From Physcia stellaris (taxonomy: Eukaryota; Ascomycota; Lecanoromycetes; Caliciales; Physciaceae), in the NCBI GenBank assembly GCA_018902385.1, contig JABSSW010000034.1, positions 62,001 through 126,000 of the forward strand: DNA of 64,000 nt. Direction: 5' to 3'. Of the stretch, positions 27,440 through 64,000 are shown piece by piece. The notes under the pieces were generated by a model, which ran no database searches, was not told the origin of the DNA, and saw nothing but the letters and a program-made list of their open reading frames with translations. How positions within the stretch are numbered: position 1 is the first letter of the stretch; each line of letters starts with the position of its first letter. Made by a program: the position numbers and the translations under genes.

Positions 27440-29290
27440 AATCATGATCATGTTATTAATATTTATTACGTCAACACGTATAAAATGATTCGACTGATAC
27501 GTTCGATAACGTCAAACAAAAATTACAATTAAAATTCAAAAAATAAAAAATCGATTTGAAAAATCGTTAATTTATAAATTTGAAATATCATGTAAAAATT
27601 TTATAATTGAACAATAATTTTCAACATTCATTACATGTTGCGTTAACGTAAATAAAACAATATGAAAAATAAATTCGATAACAACAAACGAAAATTACAA
27701 TTAAAATTTAAAAAATAAAAAATCGATTGAATGAATCATTGATTTATGAATTTATTGTTGTCGTTTATTGTTGTATTTATGAATTTAATGTTTTATTTAT
27801 GAATTTAAAATTGTATTTATGAATTTATCGCGTCGTTTACAAATTTCATGATTAAACGAAATACGATTCGATGTTTGACATGATTTTCGAATGTGTTGTT
27901 CGTCATGATCATGTTATCAATGTTTATTGCGTCAACACGTGTAAAACGATTCGATTGATGCGTTCGATAACGTCAAACGAAAATTACAATTAAAATTCAA
28001 AAGATAAAAAATCGACTCGATGAATCGTTGATTTATGAATTTACTGATTCATTTGCGAATTTCATAATTGAACGATGATTTTCAATTCATTGCATGTGAT
28101 GTCAATTCAGATCGAAATTTTCGAATGATGCATTCGATAACGTCGAACGAAAATTACAATGAAAACTCAAAAAATAGAAAATCGACTGAAAATGTTTAAT
28201 TTATGAATTTATCTCTTCATTTATATGACTAGAAGATGATTTTCGACTCATTGAATGTGACGTCAATTCAGATAGAAATTTCTGAATAATGCGTTCGATA
28301 ACGTCAAACGAAAATTACAATTAAAATTCAAAAAATAAAAATTCGATTCGATGAATCGTTGATTTATGAATTTGAAAATTCATTTACGAATTTCATGATT
28401 GAACGATGATTTTCAATTTTAAACATGTGACGTCAACGCGAATAAAAATTTCTGAATAATGCGTTCGATAACGTCAGACGAAAATTACAATTAAAATTCA
28501 AAAAATAAAAAATCGACTCGATGAATCGTTGATTTATGAATTTGAAAATTCATTTACGAATTTCATAATTGAACGATGATTTTCAATTCATTGCATGTGA
28601 CGTCAACGCGAATAGAAATTTTTGAATGATACATTCGATAACGTCAAACGAAAATTACAATCAGAACACAGAAAGTAAAAAATCGATTCGATAAATCGTT
28701 GATTTATGAATTTGAAATATCATGTAAAAATTTCATGATTGAACGATGATTTTCAATATTCATTACATGTTGCGTCAACGCAAATAAAACAATGTGAAAA
28801 ATACGTTCGATGACAACAAACGAAAATTACAATTAAAATTCAAAAAATAAGAATTCGACTTGATGAATCGTTGATTTATGAATTTGAAAATTCATTTATG
28901 AATTTCATAACTGAACGATGATTTTCAATTCATTGCATGTGACGTCAACGCGAATAAAAATTTCTGAAAAATGCATTCGATAACGTCAAACGAAAATTAC
29001 AATTAAAATTCAAAAAATAGAAATTCGATTCGATGAATCGTTGATTTATGAATTTGAAAATTCATTTACGAATTTCATGATTGAACGATGATTTTCAATT
29101 TTAAACATGTGACGTCAACGCGAATAAAAATTTCTGAATAATGCGTTCGATAACGTCAAACGAAAATTACAATTAAAATTCAAAAAATAGAAATTCGATT
29201 TCGTGAATCGTTGATTTATGAATTTTTTGAAATTTCAATTATGAATTTATCGCGTCGTTTACGAATTTCATGATCAAACGAAATACGATT
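27440..29290. repeat. ~170-bp satellite, right part of the array (about 10 copies)
   Basis: CGATAACGTCAAACGAAAAT (with variants) recurs near 27505, 27665, 27964, 28134, 28294, 28465, 28634, 28807, 28977 and 29146. Spacing is mostly 160-172 bp, with one larger gap where short ATTTATGAATTT repeats intervene. Many units carry GTGACGTCAACGCGAATA. Same family as 5,800-6,321. Confidence 0.9.
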
Positions 29291-36285: not shown

Positions 36286-38386
36286 TCACGGCTTCAGTCG
36301 CAACAAGAAACCCAGAGTGCACAACAACAAAACCATACAAACGACAAACGGCACTCCAATCCAGACGCCTCTGCCGTGGTAGGCCTGAGCGAAGATCCAG
36401 CCCCAGATCGGCGACCCAACTATGACTCCCAACGTCTCCACCACCGTGACGGCGGCGTACAGCGCCTGGATGTCGTCGGCGGCGAAGAAGCTCGTACAGA
36501 ACGCACGTACTGCATCTGGAAAGCCAACGGCGCCCGTCATCACTACCAGGCCCAGGACAAACACCGCGCGACTGGCCGCCAGCATGATGACGAGCGCCCC
36601 TGCGGCGCCGAACCCGAGCGATGCGCGCGCGACCCTGAGTTCCCGCTTGCGCTTTCTCCGAACGGCGCTGGCGAGGTCTTCGCCCTCCGGTCTATTGCCC
36701 CTGCCTCCACTATCGTTTGCATCCAGGGGGGCCTCCTGAACGACCGCGACGCGCGCACCAGGTGGCGGGCGATGCGGGATTCGGTCGAGCCATGGGAGCG
36801 CGAACAGAACGGCTACGCTGGCGAAGCTTTCGGCGCTGAGGACGTAGCCAACGTCTGCTAGCGGCCAGCCGTAACGCGTGCTGACCCATGGTTTGACTTG
36901 ATTGCGAACGCCCATTGCGAGCGAGTTGGTGAACATGATAGCCAGGAACATGAAGCAGACTGGGTTGTGGATTGGGAGGTGGGTATACCTTTGCACCGTT
37001 GCTGCATAGTGAGCTTCGCGAATGGCTGCCGCGAAGCTCTTTGAGCGATAGTTTCGGTGCGCGTTGCGAGCTTCGTGGGAATCATATCCTACATCTTCAT
37101 CTGCTGCTATCTCTTCACTCGAGTCCGAGACGCTCTTCGTGGTAAGATATTGGAGCCTGATATCCTGCCGTCTGGGCGTTTGCTGCTCGGAAAAACTGGG
37201 CTTGATGGGCCTTGGCGCTTGAGCGACGGAGCGCGGTAGTAGGCCCAGTATTGGAATTGTGACGCTTATCAGAGCCATACCAGAGAGGTTGGCCGCTACG
37301 GCGCCGTACTGAAGCAGCCACGAACCAAAGACTACTCCGCCCAGTCGCACCAGCATGCTGAGACCGGATAGCACGTACAGAACACAACTCCTATTAACGT
37401 TATTGGAGGCTGATTCGAGTTGATGAGTTGATGGGATGGGTGGCACTCACAACCGATCGGTTTCTACACTTTCTGCTATGATACTTTGCAGCAACGTGAA
37501 AAATACAGCACCCCCTCCCCCGAGAAGGCTGAAGAGACCTTCCAACCACAGATATTTGAGGTTGATGTTTGGTATCAGGACTGTGAGACCACTGATGGTT
37601 ATTATATCATTGTCTTTAAGGTCAACACCTGAAAGAGTAGCTTCTATGGCTCAACCTACCTATGATTGTCGTGAAAAGAATGCTGCATAACGTACTGATC
37701 GCGTTGACAACAAGTAATAAACGACGATCTACATGTTTTGCGAGCATAGAGAATGGTATGACGAGAAAGAGACCTGCTGGTTAATGAGCTTTACTGTCGG
37801 AAATCTGACCTTTTTCTTTTTGCAGCCACCAGTACCAGCACTTGTGTGAGAATCAGGTTAATAACTCACTGGGAATTGATCCTAGACTTGCCATGCCACC
37901 CGTCCTTTTCAATGTCCCAGTCAGTTACAGATCTTGGATGCAACAACTTGGACATGCTGTCCGACTCTCCCGATTCCAAGACTCCTCAATTCCGAAGCAC
38001 TCTTATGTTTCAAGTAATCACGGGGAACCTTACAACTCTGCCATCTCCGACTGTACCACGTCGCCCTTGCACCGAGCCTCGGCCGTGAGTCCACCCGTCC
38101 CACCCATCAGCAGCATTCTTATAAGTACCTGGTCGAATGAGGGACGTATTCCGCCTTCAGCAACCAGGAAGTTTTGGGTGGTGGCGCCCGTGTATCGCCG
38201 ACAAATGACGCTCTCGATCAGGCGCGTCCACGGCATCGAGCTCACAGCGCCGCCGAAGCTGAAGGCGACTTCGGCAGCGCAGCATAGGTAGAGTGCGAGA
38301 CGTGCGTTCTGGTTCCGCAGCCCATGATCCGGTCGCGTTTGGGGGGAAGATTGCGGCGACCATGAGAGTGGTTGACGGGATGACAT
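36286..38386 (-). CDS. MFS transporter, multi-exon, minus strand
   Basis: Start at 38386 (MSSRQPLSWSP). The first exon carries transmembrane helix 1 (ARLALYLCCAAEVAFSFGGA) and the family's early block CKGDVVQSEMAEL. A middle exon reads GLFLVIPFSMLAKHVDRRLL near 37,660-37,774, the position of the cytosolic GxLADxxGRR loop that defines MFS. Exon 37591-37451 (VLIPNINLKYLWLEGLFSLL) joins 37390-36286 across a 60-bp intron (GTGAGT...TAACG...TAG). The last exon contains a large charged cytosolic loop and helices 7-12, ending in LLLCTLGFLLRLKP. Small exons between 37,600 and 38,050 are uncertain: the junction near 37,660 closes in frame only with a very short (31-bp) or weak-donor intron, so either the model is incomplete or the gene is damaged there. 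Substrate unknown. Its position beside a UstYa-like gene suggests peptide export, which is inference. Confidence 0.75.
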
Positions 38387-39045
38387 GCTGCGACGACGCA
38401 AGGCCAGCTCTCCACGCTTTTATGGTGAATCTGCGCTGGCGAAAGCCAAAGGCGAGCTTGTACTGAGGGGGAGATTATACCGTGATGAAATGCACAAATT
38501 CTTGCTTTCGGGCTGTGGAAAAATCCTGTGTATCTCTACCCAGGAATCTACCGTCAAAGAAGGCCCGCGATCGGAGACTCTCTGGTGGTGGAGTAAGAAG
38601 GCTGTCTGGCTGAAAGCGTAAACCCTTCCTCGGCCTAGCTGGGTCCTCCGAGGACTCTCGCGGGTCATTGGTGGGGTGACTGCTTCTCGTAGCTACAAGG
38701 TGGTACTCTAAGCTAGACAGCTGCAAAGCAGAGAGCTCAATGGGTTGAGTGGGGTCTTGGCCAACGACTATCAAGCGAGCCAGATACCCATTCCGACCAC
38801 TCAATTTCTACGCCTACATCTAATTTTGACTTGCCATCGCGCTGCAACTTCAGCGGACCAGCTATCTAACCGAGAGGAGACGCCATTCGCTCCTAGATTC
38901 CTTGGCAGAAGCTTCCACCTAATGGGGTAGAGTCTTGAGGAACTCTGCCCCACAGTCGGATACCCGATTCTTGCACTTGCAGTATCTAAAGCAGCAATCC
39001 TCTCATGCAGTCTCTGATTTGACATAGAATATTACCAGAGAGAAT
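38387..39045. other. Intergenic between the MFS and UstYa-like genes
   Basis: It would hold the MFS promoter and the UstYa-like terminator. No motif is confidently identified. Confidence 0.4.
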
Positions 39046-40205
39046 CTAGAAAAAATGATGCCTCTCAGCCTCTCGACAGTCCTCCGTCTGACAATGAATC
39101 TCTTCGGATATCCCTTCAAAGCCCAGAGGAAAGAATCTGTGCTCCGCGACCCACTCTTCGAGAGGTTCAAGCCGATTGCATGTGTGATCAATATCCCAAA
39201 AAAACTCTGCATTTTCATATCTTTCAAAGAAGGTCATGTTCTTGAACCACTCCGACTGCTGCCCATGCCCTTCCTCGTCGAATGTGGTATAATTGCGATT
39301 CCACCTTCGCGTCACCGCTTGGTCAGCAGAAGTCTAAAGAACAGCAGGAGTCTAAAGAACAGCAGAAGTACGTACCAGTAGATCATTTCCACATCAGCAT
39401 GACAAAGCACAATCTGTCTCATGTAATCCAAACAATGATCTAAACCCATCAGTACCTCATCATAGTTCTAACGTGAATGTACTCACGTCTATGATAATTG
39501 AATTGCGCATCCGTTACGTTTGGGAAGTACCTTTCTCGATTAAAAGATTAGTTGAATTGCGAATCCGTTACGTTGTAAAGTACCTCTCTCGATTAAAAGA
39601 TCTCCGGAGAATATCGAGACAGTGCAATTGATGATACATTGACGGTGCAAACAAATACTTCGTGGGCTCCCATGGACTGGCGATGGTAGGGCGCCCTTGT
39701 TGAATATAAAGCTTCGTCATAACGTCTTTATTCAAAGCAACGTAGCCCATGTCGTGTCCTTGAATGTCATTCCATGCAGAGTCGGCAACATCGGGGTCGT
39801 CGGTCTGGAAAGATAAACTGGGCCTGAATTTCTTTCTCACTGGCTGCAACACATGACGCGCGGGAGCTTTCGAGAAGCGTCAGTTCAATGTCATGCTGAT
39901 AGGGTAGAGAAGTACTAACAGTATGGCACAGAAGCCTTGGCCAGGTCTTTGCGATTATGAGTCTCAGAAACTGCGAGCAAAGTCAAGCAAACAGCCAGTA
40001 TCAGCGCTAAGCCGACGTTGACGCAGCTCATGACTTTGTTAAAGGTAGTAGTCGTGCCAAGCACCGGCGCCTTCTTCTCGGAGAGTTCGTTATTGATAAA
40101 GGGTTGGTCTTCTTCATCGGTACTCTCTCCCGTGGCTGTCAGCCCGTGAGAGTGTCGTGGAGTCATGGTGAACGAGGAGCGAAGCAATTTCCGAAAGGGG
40201 TTCAT
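39046..40205 (-). CDS. UstYa-like (DUF3328) peptide-modifying oxidase, 5 exons
   Basis: Exons 40205-39920, 39866-39584, 39530-39487, 39439-39376 and 39304-39046 total 936 nt and close in frame to 311 residues. Introns are 53, 53, 47 and 71 bp. Residues ~59-81 form one transmembrane helix (MSCVNVGLALILAVCLTLLA), followed by the SPAR motif. The two family-defining HxxHC boxes are present: HQLHC (~174-178) and HRHHC (~203-207, then LDYMRQ). Downstream comes a DIDHTC segment. UstYa-family proteins are secretory-pathway oxidases thought to cyclise ribosomal precursor peptides (ustiloxin, phomopsin and asperipin pathways) and also act in some other pathways. The second HxxHC box is assembled across an intron, which supports the splice model. 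The nearby Kex2-type repeat precursor (42,475) fits that pathway. The second intron coincides with a tandem duplication. Confidence 0.88.
39494..39600 (-). repeat. 53/54-bp tandem duplication spanning an intron
   Basis: On the minus strand, 39600-39548 and 39547-39494 are two adjacent copies beginning TCTTTTAATCGAGA and differing at a handful of positions. Each copy contains AGGTACTT. The GT of the first copy is the donor (39583) and the AG of the second is the acceptor (39531), making a 53-bp intron of exactly one repeat length. Confidence 0.85.
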
Positions 40206-42343
40206 GTGAGAGGAATTATCTTGGAGACTCGAGTTGAAGAAGAACGGGGCTCGTACCTTTCACGGGCTGAGGAGGATGGAAAAGATGCGAGTAAGACTTT
40301 GGGTAGGTAAGATTCAACGTGGGGAATTTGTGACATGATAAGAGAGGCAAAAGGACGTTGGACGGCCGAATCAAAAGCAAAGCTGCGAGGAGAGGACTGA
40401 GACCAGTCCATCCCGTGATCTGGAACAGCAAGGTAGAGAAAGAGGTGGCAACTTACCTATCGCCTTCTAGTTGCTGATGTACCCCATTTTGCCAATTAGA
40501 TTATGCCGATCATTGTCGCGTTCTCGTGTGAGGAGGTTCGTGCAGAATGCCATCCGCAGAATGCCATCCGCAGAATGCCATCAAGAGATTGGCACGGAAA
40601 AATTCGGCAAAGATGATGCTGCTGTTGCTGCTGCTGATGATGACGATTATGATGACGACGATTTTCCATTCAGAAGCAGATCTCTCTCAGGCTTTGGTAC
40701 CCCCTCGCAACCCCTGTTACCAGCTGCAGCGATGTTAATGCGCTGGCCCCGCTCGCCCCGCTCGCCCCAGACGAAAGGGGCGGCCCGCAGATGACATTGC
40801 AGTTAAGTTTACTTTCAAAACGTCCAAACTTCCATTTCCACACCCTGTGTCCATTCATGCCCCATACTCGTACCATACTGCTGGAAAACAGAGCAGCGAC
40901 TCAAAACCTGCCCTCACAGCTACCAGCATCGTATCACGCAAAAGCTCTAGGCACTCTCGTCGGAGAGATTGAGTGCGCGACTAGACCCAATCAGACTATA
41001 TATATGAAACACACATCTGATCTCCGAACTATGTATCTTTTTCACAGATAATATCGCAATTGTGTGTACACTGTGTTTTTTTGTTCATAGAATCTGATTG
41101 TTGATAGCAATGACTCGTTTTTCAAATCTGCACGCTGTAGAGAGTCTTGTATTGTATTGTAACGGTGTGGGCAATAGTCTGCCTGATTGGTCCCGAGCGC
41201 GCGTTTAGTCTTCTGCAAGGGGCCTTGTGATACTCTCAAAATCAGCATGTTCACCCACACTATAATCGTGCTGCACTAATCGCTAACAGCACGATTATCC
41301 TCCCGCATGGAACTCAGACAGATCCGCTAGAAGGAAGCTCAAGCCTTGGCAGCAGTGTACTGACCTCTCGACTGCCCACTAGATCTCGACAGAGTTGCTT
41401 GACCACACAGGGAGATTATCATTTTAGCGATGTTTGTGGTCGTCGAAGACTGTGATGTCTCTCGACCTAGCTCGACCTAGCAGTCTTCAGAAATCGGCAA
41501 TGATCGACATGAAGCGACACGAGCCACTGTTGCTGCTGATGGTCTTGCTATGGCACATGCAACGATAATCTTATTAGCGCACCGCGTTGCTATCTTAAGA
41601 TGCAGTCATGTCGGAGATGAGTTGCAATGTTACTATTGAATATGCTGGAATTGAGGAATGACTAGGTTCCTCAATCCAGCCATTGTGAGATGTAGATGGT
41701 GAGGTACACAGAAGCTTGATCGGAAAGTACCGTTCATAGAATACCTTTGGTCGACGAGGAGATGCAGAGCGATTTCCATTGCACAGATATCATGCCAGTC
41801 CTTCTTCTTTTTTCGCTCAATGCAGGCTTGAACCGACTAGCAGGCGGCCAGGACTGTACATACCTCCCATTGAGGACTTGGACCACCCAAGTACACGATT
41901 GGAAAAATTACAGTGCAATGCAGATGCTCATGCAAAGCTAGAAAAGCTCTCCATCGGAGTTCACTGTACGTCGATCTTACGGAAGTCTCAACATCCGGAA
42001 CTCTCACCATATGATGGTCCACCTCACATGATGTTACTGCTGCAGTTGCTCTTGATTGGATGATGCTTGAGCATGATTCAGCACCGGGTCCAGCTGCACA
42101 AGGGGGCCAGAAGCATCACCATCTATTGTCACTCATAGTCCGGAGATAGCCGCAAATAAAATGGATCTGTAACATGCAGTCATCAGATAAACAACTCATA
42201 GTGGTTAGTGGACTCCGCATGAGGTTGACGCAAGTCTACAAGGTGTCTAGTAGCCAAAGTAGCCAGGTCCAATAATAGCCGGGTTCAACACATCTTTCAT
42301 TAAATTCTTCTTGCGATTCCCCAATCTCTCTGCCCCATAGTGG
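40206..42343. other. 2.1-kb intergenic region upstream of the repeat-precursor gene
   Basis: It contains short tandem repeats: three copies of AGAATGCCATCCGC near 40,547-40,590, a trinucleotide-rich GATGATGCTGCTG stretch near 40,610-40,660, and a CTCGACCTAG duplication near 41,461. No gene is recognised. Confidence 0.5.
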
Positions 42344-42350
42344 TATATAA
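42344..42350 (+). promoter_or_regulatory. TATA box of the repeat-precursor gene
   Basis: TATATAA lies 125 bp upstream of the ATG at 42475, a usual distance for fungal TATA boxes once a 5' UTR is allowed. Confidence 0.5.
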
Positions 42351-42474
42351 CATCGAGTGGGCCCCGGTTCTTTCACAATTCTCTTTCCAAGCTCTCCTAA
42401 GAGGTCAATCTGCAATAGACTTACCACCCTTTGACCATCCATCAGAGTCCAAAGCATTGCACGAGTCGTACAAC

Positions 42475-42873
42475 ATGCATCTCAGCATCATTCTGACCGC
42501 TTTTGCGGCTGCGGCAGCTGCCGTCCCCATTATCAACGGTACGAAATTCGTCTTGATTAAAAGAATCAACCTGTGATACTTGGAAGCTAGTCAATATCCT
42601 GTATATTTCATTACGTTTCCTCTTCTTTTTCTTGATATGCTTTCCCACGTTGATATTTCAATAGGCAACATTGAAGCTTTGGAGAAGCGCGAGCCTATGG
42701 GTCGATCTTATGCCATCAGTGGTCTCGACGAGGGTCTTGAGAAGCGCGAGCCTATGGGTCGATCTTATGCCATCAGTGGTCTCGACGAGGGTCTTGAGAA
42801 GCGCGAGCCTATGGGTCGATCTTATGCCATCAGTGGTCTCGACGAGGGTCTTGAGAAGCGCGAGGAGAACTAA
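42475..42873 (+). CDS. Kex2-processed repeat precursor peptide (dikaritin/RiPP-type), 2 exons
   Basis: Exon 1 42475-42538, 126-bp intron (GGTACG...CAATAG), exon 2 42665-42873; 90 residues. Residues 1-~17 (MHLSIILTAFAAAAAAV) form a signal peptide. After NIEALEKR come three perfect copies of EPMGRSYAISGLDEGLEKR (57 bp each: 42691-42747, 42748-42804, 42805-42861), identical at nucleotide level, then EEN and stop. Every unit ends in Lys-Arg, the Kex2 protease site, so the secretory pathway should release three identical 17-19-residue peptides. Signal peptide plus repeated KR-bounded cores is the hallmark of fungal UstA/PhomA-type precursors, whose tyrosine-containing cores are cyclised by UstYa enzymes. 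The Tyr-Ala-Ile segment recalls known Tyr-initiated cores, but the product here is unknown. Alternative: a secreted repeat peptide such as a repellent or pheromone-like product. Confidence 0.85.
42691..42861 (+). repeat. Three identical 57-bp in-frame repeats
   Basis: Units start at 42691, 42748 and 42805 and show no substitutions between them, which points to recent expansion or homogenisation. Confidence 0.97.
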
Positions 42874-51845: not shown

Positions 51846-52896
51846 CTACAACCATTGTTTGTTACCCAAATGGGAAATGAATGCGCCACCATCACCCTTC
51901 TCGATACTCGCATTCGTAAGGAGCTTCAGCATGCGATCTACTGACTCGTCAGGCTGGATAGGACCTTTCAAGTGGGGCGCATAGGCAGCGAATTTAGCAC
52001 CCATGGCCATCATGCCCTTGTTAGCTTCTTCGTCGCTTGGATCTATAACTAATCAGAGATAGTGCTGACAACATTTCGAAGTACTTTGAGGAACATACCT
52101 GGAGCATTCCCGGTATCGACATAGCCAGGGCTGATCGCCATGAATAGGATGCCTTCCTTCTTGTACAAAGCGTTGTAGTGGGCTACTGCCATATTGACAG
52201 CCGCCTTGCTGATGGCATAGGGCGCCGCCACATCCATTTCTACCTCATTGATGAAGTCCGTGGAGGCCAATCCGGTCGAGAGAGTCAAGACCTTCTTCGC
52301 GGTGCCTTTGCGGAGAAGAGGGACGAAGGCATTAATTGTCTGGATTACTCCGATGACATTGGTTCTGAAGCTGCTTGCAAGGTCTTCCACCAAGATGTCT
52401 GGGTCTTCTGGGCTGCCGTACTTGCAATATTAGTGTATATTTGAGTCAATATTCCCCGTGGGATCAATGCGAACTTACAAATCAGCAAGGGATTTGAAAG
52501 GACTGATCTTTGAGACGATGGCGCCATTGTTGATGAGGTAATCCAGCTTCCCTCCCACGATGGTCTCCACCTTGCTTGCCGCTGACTGGACCCACTTGTC
52601 AATATTTTACCGCGATAGTGCATATGGCTTCGCCTGAGAGGTCTTTACCTTCAAAGATTGATGGTTTACTATATCTGCTTCGATGAAGGTGGCGTTGCTT
52701 GGTAGCTTCTCCCCGTATCTGGATTCAGCTTCCTTGGGATTTCTAGCCAGGCCGACTACGATATTGTTGGCATCCTGGGACAATTGTCGCACAAATTCGA
52801 GCTTGTAAACGAACAATCAGTATGGTGCTGTCCTAACGCAAAGGTGCGATTTACCCCAATTCCTCTGGAGGCTCCTGCAATCACGTAAGCTGGCAT
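51846..52896 (-). CDS. Short-chain dehydrogenase/reductase (SDR), 5 exons
   Basis: Exons 52896-52855, 52801-52649, 52594-52479, 52412-52099 and 52048-51846 total 828 nt and close in frame to 275 residues, all GT...AG. Motifs in order: nucleotide-binding GASRGIG at residues 8-14, YLINNGA (the NNAG position), a central TNVIGVIQTINAFVPLL helix, the LTLSTGLAS strand with the catalytic Ser, and the catalytic YAISK (Y-x3-K), then SPGYVDTG. These define a classical SDR using NAD(P)(H). The C-terminus (FISHLGNKQWL) is typical of fungal SDRs of unknown substrate, about the usual 250-280 residues. It lies next to a Zn2Cys6 regulator on the same strand. A role in secondary metabolism is possible but not shown. 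Confidence 0.88.
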
Positions 52897-61878: not shown

Positions 61879-62249
61879 CAATGTTCGCAATAGTGCACTA
61901 GTGCTGTTTTTGGCCCAAAACTGCACTGCACTAAGACGTTTTTGAAAAAAAATAGTGCAATTTCGGCCAGAACTGCACTGCACCAGTGCGCACTACATGA
62001 GTCAACCCTAGCAGCAACCCTAAAGATGTCAGGGTTATGTCAGGGTTATGTCGAGATTCAACCTCAAAAATCTTGAATATCCGCAGGAATATTGACATAG
62101 TACATATATTGTTCAGTGCACTAGTGCAATTTGCCTCAAAACTGCACTGCACCAGTGCAAATTTTTCGAAAACTGCACTAGAAAAATCGCGAGAACTACA
62201 GTAGTGCACGGGTTGCACTACTTAGTGCAGTGCACTATTGCGAACATTG
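61879..62249. mobile_element. 371-bp MITE with perfect 21-bp terminal inverted repeats, hAT-like
   Basis: CAATGTTCGCAATAGTGCAC at 61879 (21 bp, to 61899) is matched exactly, as reverse complement, by 62229-62249. The interior is non-coding and full of subterminal TGCAC/GTGCA motifs in both orientations (for example near 61,955-61,990, 62,115-62,165 and 62,205-62,235). Short length, terminal inverted repeats and clustered subterminal motifs fit a non-autonomous DNA transposon. The CAxTGTTC start resembles hAT elements. No 8-bp target duplication could be found. Confidence 0.75.
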
Positions 62250-64000
62250 TTTCGAAATTTTGCGATGCAACTTTGCGACTCTGTCGATGAAATTTCGCAT
62301 ATTGAATTTTTCAATTTGTCATTTTGTGATTTTCGAGTCTCGTTCTTTTCTTCGCATTTTTCTTTTCATTTCACAGATGTAAAAAACATTCTAAATGTAA
62401 CAATTCGATCTGTGTTGCAATTAATTCATCTAGAATTAAAATTGCAAAAAATCTGATGAAAATCTCAACTTCAAATCCTGTACACTTAATATTATCATCG
62501 ATATAGTCAATGAATTATTTCTATTTTAACAAATTATGAATTCGAACAATTCGCTTTTTATCAGTCAAACACTATTCGTTTCGTCGTTTTCATTTTTTCA
62601 ATGATTTCTGCATCGTCGTGCGCAATTTTTACGAAATCGAATACATTTTTTGAAAAAATGAATTAAACGAGTTTTTCGACTCTCAACGTTGAATTTATTG
62701 TTTTTTATTGATTCATTATTTTGTTGTCTTTATTACATGAGTTAATTCGCGTATACATATCGTTTTCTAATTTTTCAACGAGTTTCGATGATTCTCGTCG
62801 TCGAAACAACGATTTACATTTTTTTTATCATTTCAATATCGTGCGCAAAACATTCATTTGATCGATATCATGATTTATTGCGATATTCGAATCATTACAA
62901 CATTTTGTTTTATTTACGTGTCGTCAAAACATCTCATCATGATGTTTTATGTTTGAATCATTGTTCAAACGATTATCAACATCAATCGTCATTCAGAATT
63001 TCGATTCGAATTTCACACGCAAATTTTGAACATTTGCGCACATTTTTTATTAAATTGAATGCGTTATTTGCGTTAAATTTTTCAAATCGAATTTTCATAT
63101 TCGAATCGACGTTATTTTCGATGAAATTTCATTGCTGAAAATTATGTTTTTACATTAAATTTCATTCTTTCTATTAGTTTATTGCTAGATTACGTTTGAT
63201 TCGAATGTTTGAACATTCGTCTATTTTGTTCGTTCAAACGTTTGATCGTTTGTTGATTTTCTCGTATCGCATAAATGAAAATTTGAACGAAATTCTGAAT
63301 TCGAAAATCGTGTCATTGATTCGTTTTTTACAAAGCAAATAGTTGATTTCGTTATTTTTTTTTCGTTATCACACATTTTCTGAATTTTTCATTGTTCGTT
63401 ATTTTATTTTCAATTTATTCTCGATACACATATCAATACATTTTTTTGTCTATTTTATTTCACTGTTTGTTTCGAAATAAATCATACGATCGTCATTTCG
63501 AAAAAATCAAACAGTTGACGTATTTGCTTTCGTTGTCGCTACACAATTGTTTATAAGTTCTGACAATAAAAAAATGCATGAAACGAAACAGACACGATAA
63601 TCATTTCATATTCACGTTCATTTTTTAATAGACGTATTCAAATCAAAATGAAAAATCATTCGATCAAATTTTTGATTTACATCAAATCATTGTATCGTTT
63701 CGAGAATTATTATTTTTGAAAACTTGAAATCAAAAATCATTTTCAGTTTCTAAATGTTGAATGAATTATCACGAAATTCATACGAATTCGTTTTATCAAA
63801 AATTTCATGACAGTTGAAATCGAAACGAAAAACTATACGAACGAACATGTCGTCGTCAAAACGTTTGACTTGAAAATCGTTCAGAATCGTCATGATTTTG
63901 AAATCATCAAAACACATAATTTTTATTTAATTTCGTGTATGTTTCACATCGCTTCACTATTTTGAATCAGAAAATTTTCTTGAAACGTTGAATCGCTATT
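62250..64000. other. Start of the right-hand AT-rich block
   Basis: CT/CC/AG/GG become scarce directly after the MITE, as in the left block but less extremely. An open frame at 62,788-63,138 has no domain and fits chance. No transposon domain could be identified. Confidence 0.6.

Follow-up and report, generated by a model that had tools for sequence, protein, structure and literature searches.

UstYa-type proteins, members of the DUF3328 family (PF11807), are required for cyclization in the ustiloxin, asperipin-2a and phomopsin pathways (PMC7329392). A DUF3328 gene lies among the 15 nearest genes for 1758 of 7878 genes (22%) encoding Kex2-processed repeat proteins (KEPs), at a mean distance of 3.09 genes; lichens and Lecanoromycetes are not mentioned in the main text of that study (PMC7329392). 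A 2025 survey of 111 lichen-fungus genomes describes UstYa-type genes as widespread, but a repeated precursor was not found in either of its two main clans (PMC12048977), while a metagenome study of Teloschistales, by its own description, left ribosomally synthesized and post-translationally modified peptides (RiPPs) out of its cluster families (PMC9907504). Here we analyze a 64,000-nucleotide stretch of the Physcia stellaris genome (44.0 Mb, 147 contigs), namely positions 62001-126000 of contig JABSSW010000034.1 (C34), hereafter referred to as the window. Within 6.6 kb (36286-42873), this stretch contains genes for a repeat precursor, a UstYa protein and a major facilitator superfamily (MFS) transporter. 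An earlier note on this DNA had proposed a cluster of these three genes; all three were confirmed, and the proposed boundaries are exact to the base.

From the sequence, we conclude with a probability of about three in four that this is a minimal UstYa-dependent RiPP cluster, of the ust-RiPS or dikaritin-like type, in a fungus related to Pyrenodesmia. The product, which like its cross-link we infer from the genes, is probably a small, cross-linked, secreted peptide. The cluster thus belongs to a known kind of RiPP; its value lies in a precursor family in which core and follower can be read directly. A word search of the open-access literature, a scope with most subscription journals and all supplements outside it, found no publication on the cluster among the records listed.

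The precursor family and its unit grammar

The precursor carries a 19-residue unit, ended by Lys-Arg (KR), in three copies that are identical in DNA. The tandem repeat has a period of 57 bp, 3.2 copies and 100% matches, and is therefore not a product of chance. As one peptide the unit reads EPMGRSYAISGLDEGLEKR, and the linear, unmodified peptide expected from it is MGRSYAISGLDEGLE. A scan of the 64-kb window for KR-separated repeat open reading frames (ORFs) returned this gene only. The repeats follow a putative signal peptide that was assigned by eye, not by a predictor, and on that assignment the gene has the form of a secreted precursor with Kex2-separated repeats, with a Tyr inside the repeated core (MGRSYAI).

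A database search with the precursor identified two proteins, P0005 and P0006, and a profile made from the three sequences (best 8000 candidates scored) added one further homologue, P0007, with an E-value of 2.9e-15. All three are marked 'ena' and come from contigs of at most 8134 bp; we take them to be metagenome ORFs read without splicing, hence with exon 1 unseen. P0006 and P0007 stop at the K of their last unit. Cutting the four precursors at the conserved letters yields 12 units with 7 distinct cores, which follow the pattern KR-(EP/EA/DP)n-[core, 7-8 residues]-[SG]GLxEGL[EG]KR. The cores are MGRSYAI, GSKFYEF, GGYGRYYL, FALSTSLR, RVGGLYPF, GVIVYEH and RGANIYTH, and the dipeptide stretches ahead of them are EP, EPEP, EA and EADP. 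Without these leading dipeptides every core is 7 or 8 residues long, and the G, L, E, G, L and K of the follower occupy fixed positions in 12 of 12 copies. A core around SYAISG, as proposed in the earlier note, was rejected, as the homologues place the SG at the opening of this conserved follower; the variable core is MGRSYAI.

The flanks are thus conserved and the core is hypervariable, except for one position. Three residues before the follower (position -3), Tyr is found in six of the seven distinct cores, while other core columns reach at most 4/7. When residues were shuffled within cores, some column reached 6/7 in 65 of 200,000 trials, a figure that is a guide and not a probability, the seven cores being related by descent. 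The variability of the core suggests that each species could make its own peptide with the same machinery.

The UstYa and transporter genes and their conservation

The UstYa gene is divergent from the precursor, 2.3 kb away, and is adjoined by the MFS gene. Its predicted product scores 102.8 bits against PF11807 (cut-off 25), over profile positions 13-220 of 220, and contains both HxxHC boxes, namely YHQLHC and YHRHHC, the latter completed across intron 3. Judged by eye, it would have one membrane-spanning stretch. Six weak MHC (major histocompatibility complex) matches among solved structures, with E-values of 0.28-0.34, were taken as chance.

Among about 5.8 billion proteins, the UstYa search identified 4 in total that passed an E-value cut-off of 0.001. 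The closest, with 66% identity across 95% of the query, is the hypothetical protein P0001 from Pyrenodesmia sp. 3 TL-2023. The genus Pyrenodesmia comprises lichen fungi in the family Teloschistaceae. P0001 crosses the splice joints RERYFPN and YWWNRNY exactly as our gene model predicts, which confirms the splicing there. In its tail, moreover, 65 of 120 positions agree with the N-terminal part of the MFS protein encoded in the window (E 2e-29); Pyrenodesmia has therefore kept UstYa and MFS as neighbors. In its public gene model, P0001 is a fusion of UstYa with the beginning of the MFS protein and lacks the stretch of the second HxxHC box, whose absence we take to be a gene-model error. A second relative, P0002, is a UstYa fragment found on two contigs, which matches the first exon and is 68% identical over 31% of UstYa. 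The longest contig recorded for P0002 measures 8134 bp, as does that recorded for the precursor homologue P0005, so that the two probably share one contig. An absence of conserved pairing, which the earlier note had named as grounds for abandoning the cluster, is thus not what was found.

In the UstYa gene, the second Met may be the start, which would give 298 residues, and the Pyrenodesmia protein begins there. For intron 4, a 38-nt version at 18-bp repeats was rejected, since splicing out 71 nt yields YWWNRNY, which Pyrenodesmia shares. The stretch at 39498-39601 is a tandem duplication with a period of 53 bp (90% matches with indels; 33/53 in an ungapped comparison), and can be removed in frame by splicing as an intron of 53 nt whose joint reads AG|GT. 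Intron 2 is thus a likely case of intron birth by tandem duplication. A perfect 14-bp tandem repeat of 2.9 copies (40542-40582) lies between the divergent genes, upstream of UstYa and about 340 bp from its start.

The MFS protein scores 40.4 bits against MFS_1 (cut-off 33.4). Its gene model was placed by hand, with intron 3 being one of several open choices and intron 2 having no clear branch-point match; an automatic search for the 5' introns gave none under its filters. Coordinates are collected in Table 1.

Table 1. Coordinates, in the window, of the genes of the cluster and their parts
Feature	Position	Strand	Details
Precursor gene	42475-42873	+	2 exons, 273-nt coding sequence, 90 residues
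Precursor exon 1	42475-42538	+	start codon and signal-peptide-like hydrophobic stretch MHLSIILTAFAAAAAAVPIIN; open in the spliced model
Precursor intron	42539-42664	+	126 nt, GT...AG
Precursor exon 2	42665-42873	+	NIEALEKR, three repeats, EEN stop; homologues P0005-P0007
Repeat 1	42691-42747	+	EP, core MGRSYAI, follower SGLDEGLE, KR
Repeat 2	42748-42804	+	DNA identical to repeat 1
Repeat 3	42805-42861	+	DNA identical to repeats 1 and 2
UstYa gene (PF11807/DUF3328)	39046-40205	-	311 residues, 5 exons, four introns (53, 53, 47, 71 nt)
UstYa exons	40205-39920, 39866-39584, 39530-39487, 39439-39376, 39304-39046	-	spliced model
UstYa intron 2	39531-39583	-	53 nt, as long as one period of the 39498-39601 tandem duplication
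MFS transporter gene	36286-38386	-	590 residues, four introns
MFS introns	38033-37905, 37869-37777, 37659-37614, 37450-37391	-	placed by hand

Proposed pathway and alternatives

In the pathway that we infer, rather than observe, for follower recognition, the link between Tyr -3 and residue -1, Ste13-type trimming and export, the precursor would enter the secretory pathway, where UstYa would recognize the conserved follower SGLxEGLE. UstYa would then oxidatively link the Tyr at -3, most probably by a bond between its phenol oxygen and the beta-carbon of the second residue after it (Ile in this core), so as to form a ring around Y-A-I. Kex2 would cut behind KR, a Ste13-like dipeptidyl peptidase would trim EP (EA and DP in the relatives), Kex1 would remove KR, an unlinked peptidase would remove the follower, and the MFS protein would export the product. 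The Ste13 rule is for XA/XP dipeptides (PMC7329392); EP, EA, EADP and EPEP all fit this rule, which supports the proposed trimming. The genome has one proprotein-convertase (Kex2-type) match and two DPPIV-type matches. Only tentatively would we extend this pathway to the family as a whole, i.e., to a single UstYa that, without a tyrosinase, reads SGLxEGLE and links Tyr -3 to an Ile, Phe, Leu or His at -1 while the rest of the core varies freely between species; a Tyr-to-His-type ring would have no counterpart in the literature cited here.

Several observations weigh against the conclusion that this cluster makes a cross-linked peptide. The protein searches gave no Pyrenodesmia precursor. The core FALSTSLR, from P0006, has no Tyr, and the seven cores, which come from related precursors, are not independent. 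UstYa homologues also act elsewhere in hydroxylation, chlorination and transacylation (PMC12048977), and family membership therefore does not prove cross-linking. Lastly, no tyrosinase, S41 peptidase or P450 was found in reach, so that the tyrosinase step of the ustiloxin and phomopsin pathways would have to be either dispensable, as in asperipin-2a, or unlinked.

The latter result rests on profile searches of the contig and the window, and bears out, within the scope scanned, the earlier note's statement that no tyrosinase, methyltransferase or P450 is nearby. Contig C34 has no tyrosinase (PF00264) match, with 17 of 17 candidates scored, and no S41 peptidase (PF03572) was found on it; the genome's 15 tyrosinase matches are on ten other contigs, and its sole S41 match is on contig C28. 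Of the P450s listed on C34, the closest lies at 234.7 kb, at a distance of about 130 kb (92 of 248 candidates scored). To the right of 29 kb there are 80 ORFs with a length of 100 residues or more, and a Pfam scan of 67 of them matched no methyltransferase family. Nor was there an isoflavone-reductase-like gene in these 67 ORFs, a short-chain dehydrogenase fragment (PF00106) being located at 52052-52429, about 9 kb away. Apart from UstYa and MFS, the Pfam hits were to fungal transcription factor, Zn cluster, fungal rhodopsin, WSC, ankyrin and short-chain dehydrogenase/epimerase.

The 15 tyrosinase matches on ten contigs would be compatible with a UstYa that works with an unlinked tyrosinase, in a split pathway of the ustiloxin/phomopsin type, and the Y-A-I of MGRSYAI indeed obeys the YXIX rule described for ustiloxin and phomopsin (PMC7329392). 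The homologous cores, however, break this rule, with Y-E-F, Y-Y-L, Y-P-F, Y-E-H and Y-T-H, and two tyrosinase loci are located near other UstYa genes, at about 9 kb on contig C44 and about 12 kb on C28. The C28 locus, moreover, has the sole S41 match and a YXIS precursor of its own. We thus regard the split pathway as possible, though on balance doubtful.

The C28 precursor became apparent from the other UstYa loci of the genome. A search with the UstYa profile produced 20 matches, grouped as about 13 genes at 11 loci, and KR-type repeat ORFs are found at two of the ten other loci, one each, vs none of ten flanking pieces. The C28 ORF (about 157.1-157.5 kb; L029 7130-7489) has eight repeats, two with YYIS, five with YFIS and one with YYIA, built around DYYISVD/DYFISVD; a UstYa gene lies 1-2 kb away from it, the S41 match about 4 kb and tyrosinase matches about 14 kb. 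By its appearance, this locus is a candidate ustiloxin/phomopsin-type cluster. A third repeat precursor, on C34 at about 255 kb (L030 2982-3350), is built around IAYPDSY, with units like KEDAIAYPDSYKR, and sits beside two UstYa genes. The cluster in the window, where no tyrosinase was found, is the small one among these at least three repeat-precursor loci.

A different possibility is that the precursor yields a linear, secreted KEP signal resembling alpha-pheromone, processed by Kex2, Ste13 and Kex1, and that UstYa serves something else. The EP, EA and DP behind KR are Ste13-type dipeptides, as is typical for alpha-pheromone precursors (PMC7329392), and one core in seven has no Tyr. Nevertheless, Tyr at -3 is the best conserved position of the core, UstYa is the next recognized gene, and the linkage seems to recur. 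Almost all mating-factor KEPs, with three exceptions, have no DUF3328 neighbor (PMC7329392), whereas here UstYa is 2.3 kb away. One would also expect close relatives to have similar pheromones, and this core is not conserved. A linear signal is therefore unlikely. Least probable of all is that the cluster is an inactive relic, in which a duplication-born intron and homogenized repeats reflect decay where an AT-rich block ends. Although UstYa contains the 53-bp tandem duplication and the block ends about 6 kb away, GT-AG splicing leaves the frames of all three genes fully open, removal of the duplication by splicing can preserve the frame, and UstYa is still 66% identical to the Pyrenodesmia protein.

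The dikaritin-type interpretation, i.e., a Kex2-cut repeat precursor with UstYa acting on a Tyr-containing core, is thus the best reading of the cluster, and the homologues add support. In the form given in the earlier note it holds in part: the pathway type stands, but the core boundary does not, and a precursor with one UstYa and a transporter has a precedent in asperipin-2a (PMC6514808).

The AT-rich block itself comprises 30 kb (1-30000) with a GC content of 26.6% and merely 2 GG and 8 CC dinucleotides; AG/CT is at about 0.2 of expectation, CG at 3.4 times expectation, and TpA/ApT is 0.42. The last value speaks against canonical repeat-induced point mutation (RIP). The block looks like the outcome of a C-to-T process aimed at CpC and CpT, unlike classical, CpA-directed RIP. 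It includes large tandem arrays at 27958-29225 and 2-979, with periods of 170/342 and 147 bp. The right end of the window (62001-64000) has 7 GG and 9 CC, and 1-kb stretches with at most 6 GG+CC are found in 4 of 20 other fetched loci (L030, L032, L039 and L042).

Comparison with known systems

A system of one precursor, one UstYa and one transporter would allow follower recognition and the residue preference of UstYa to be tested directly, and the window precursor and its three homologues already reveal the trimmed dipeptide, the core and the follower. In gene content, the closest described cluster is that of asperipin-2a from Aspergillus flavus (aprA, aprY, aprT, aprR), which likewise has a Kex2 repeat precursor, a single UstYa homologue and a transporter, while none of its four genes is for a tyrosinase (PMC6514808). 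It also has a reductase gene (PMC6514808), while no isoflavone-reductase-like gene was found beside the window cluster. The core there is FYYTGY, as opposed to MGRSYAI, and the units here are of 19 residues with a long follower.

With ustiloxin B and phomopsin the cluster shares a repeat precursor, UstYa and a Tyr-X-Ile core, YAI here and YAIG or YVIP there (PMC7329392). It differs from them in that neither the tyrosinase and S41 peptidase of that subtype nor a second UstYa was found, in that the Tyr is internal, being preceded by four residues once EP has been trimmed, and in that relatives of the precursor replace Ile by Phe, Leu or His. The epichloecyclins (GigA) of Epichloe, a symbiotic fungus, also derive from one secreted precursor whose repeats have varying cores (PMC9233826), with a DUF3328 protein in the pathway (PMC12048977). 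Their ring, however, joins an N-terminal Ile to an internal Tyr (PMC9233826), and MGRSYAI has no Ile at its start. Finally, the lichen RiPP clans R1 and R2 of Parmeliaceae are similar in having UstYa-type signature genes with HxxHC in Lecanoromycetes; in the account given of them no repeated precursor was found (PMC12048977), whereas in the window a repeated precursor adjoins UstYa.

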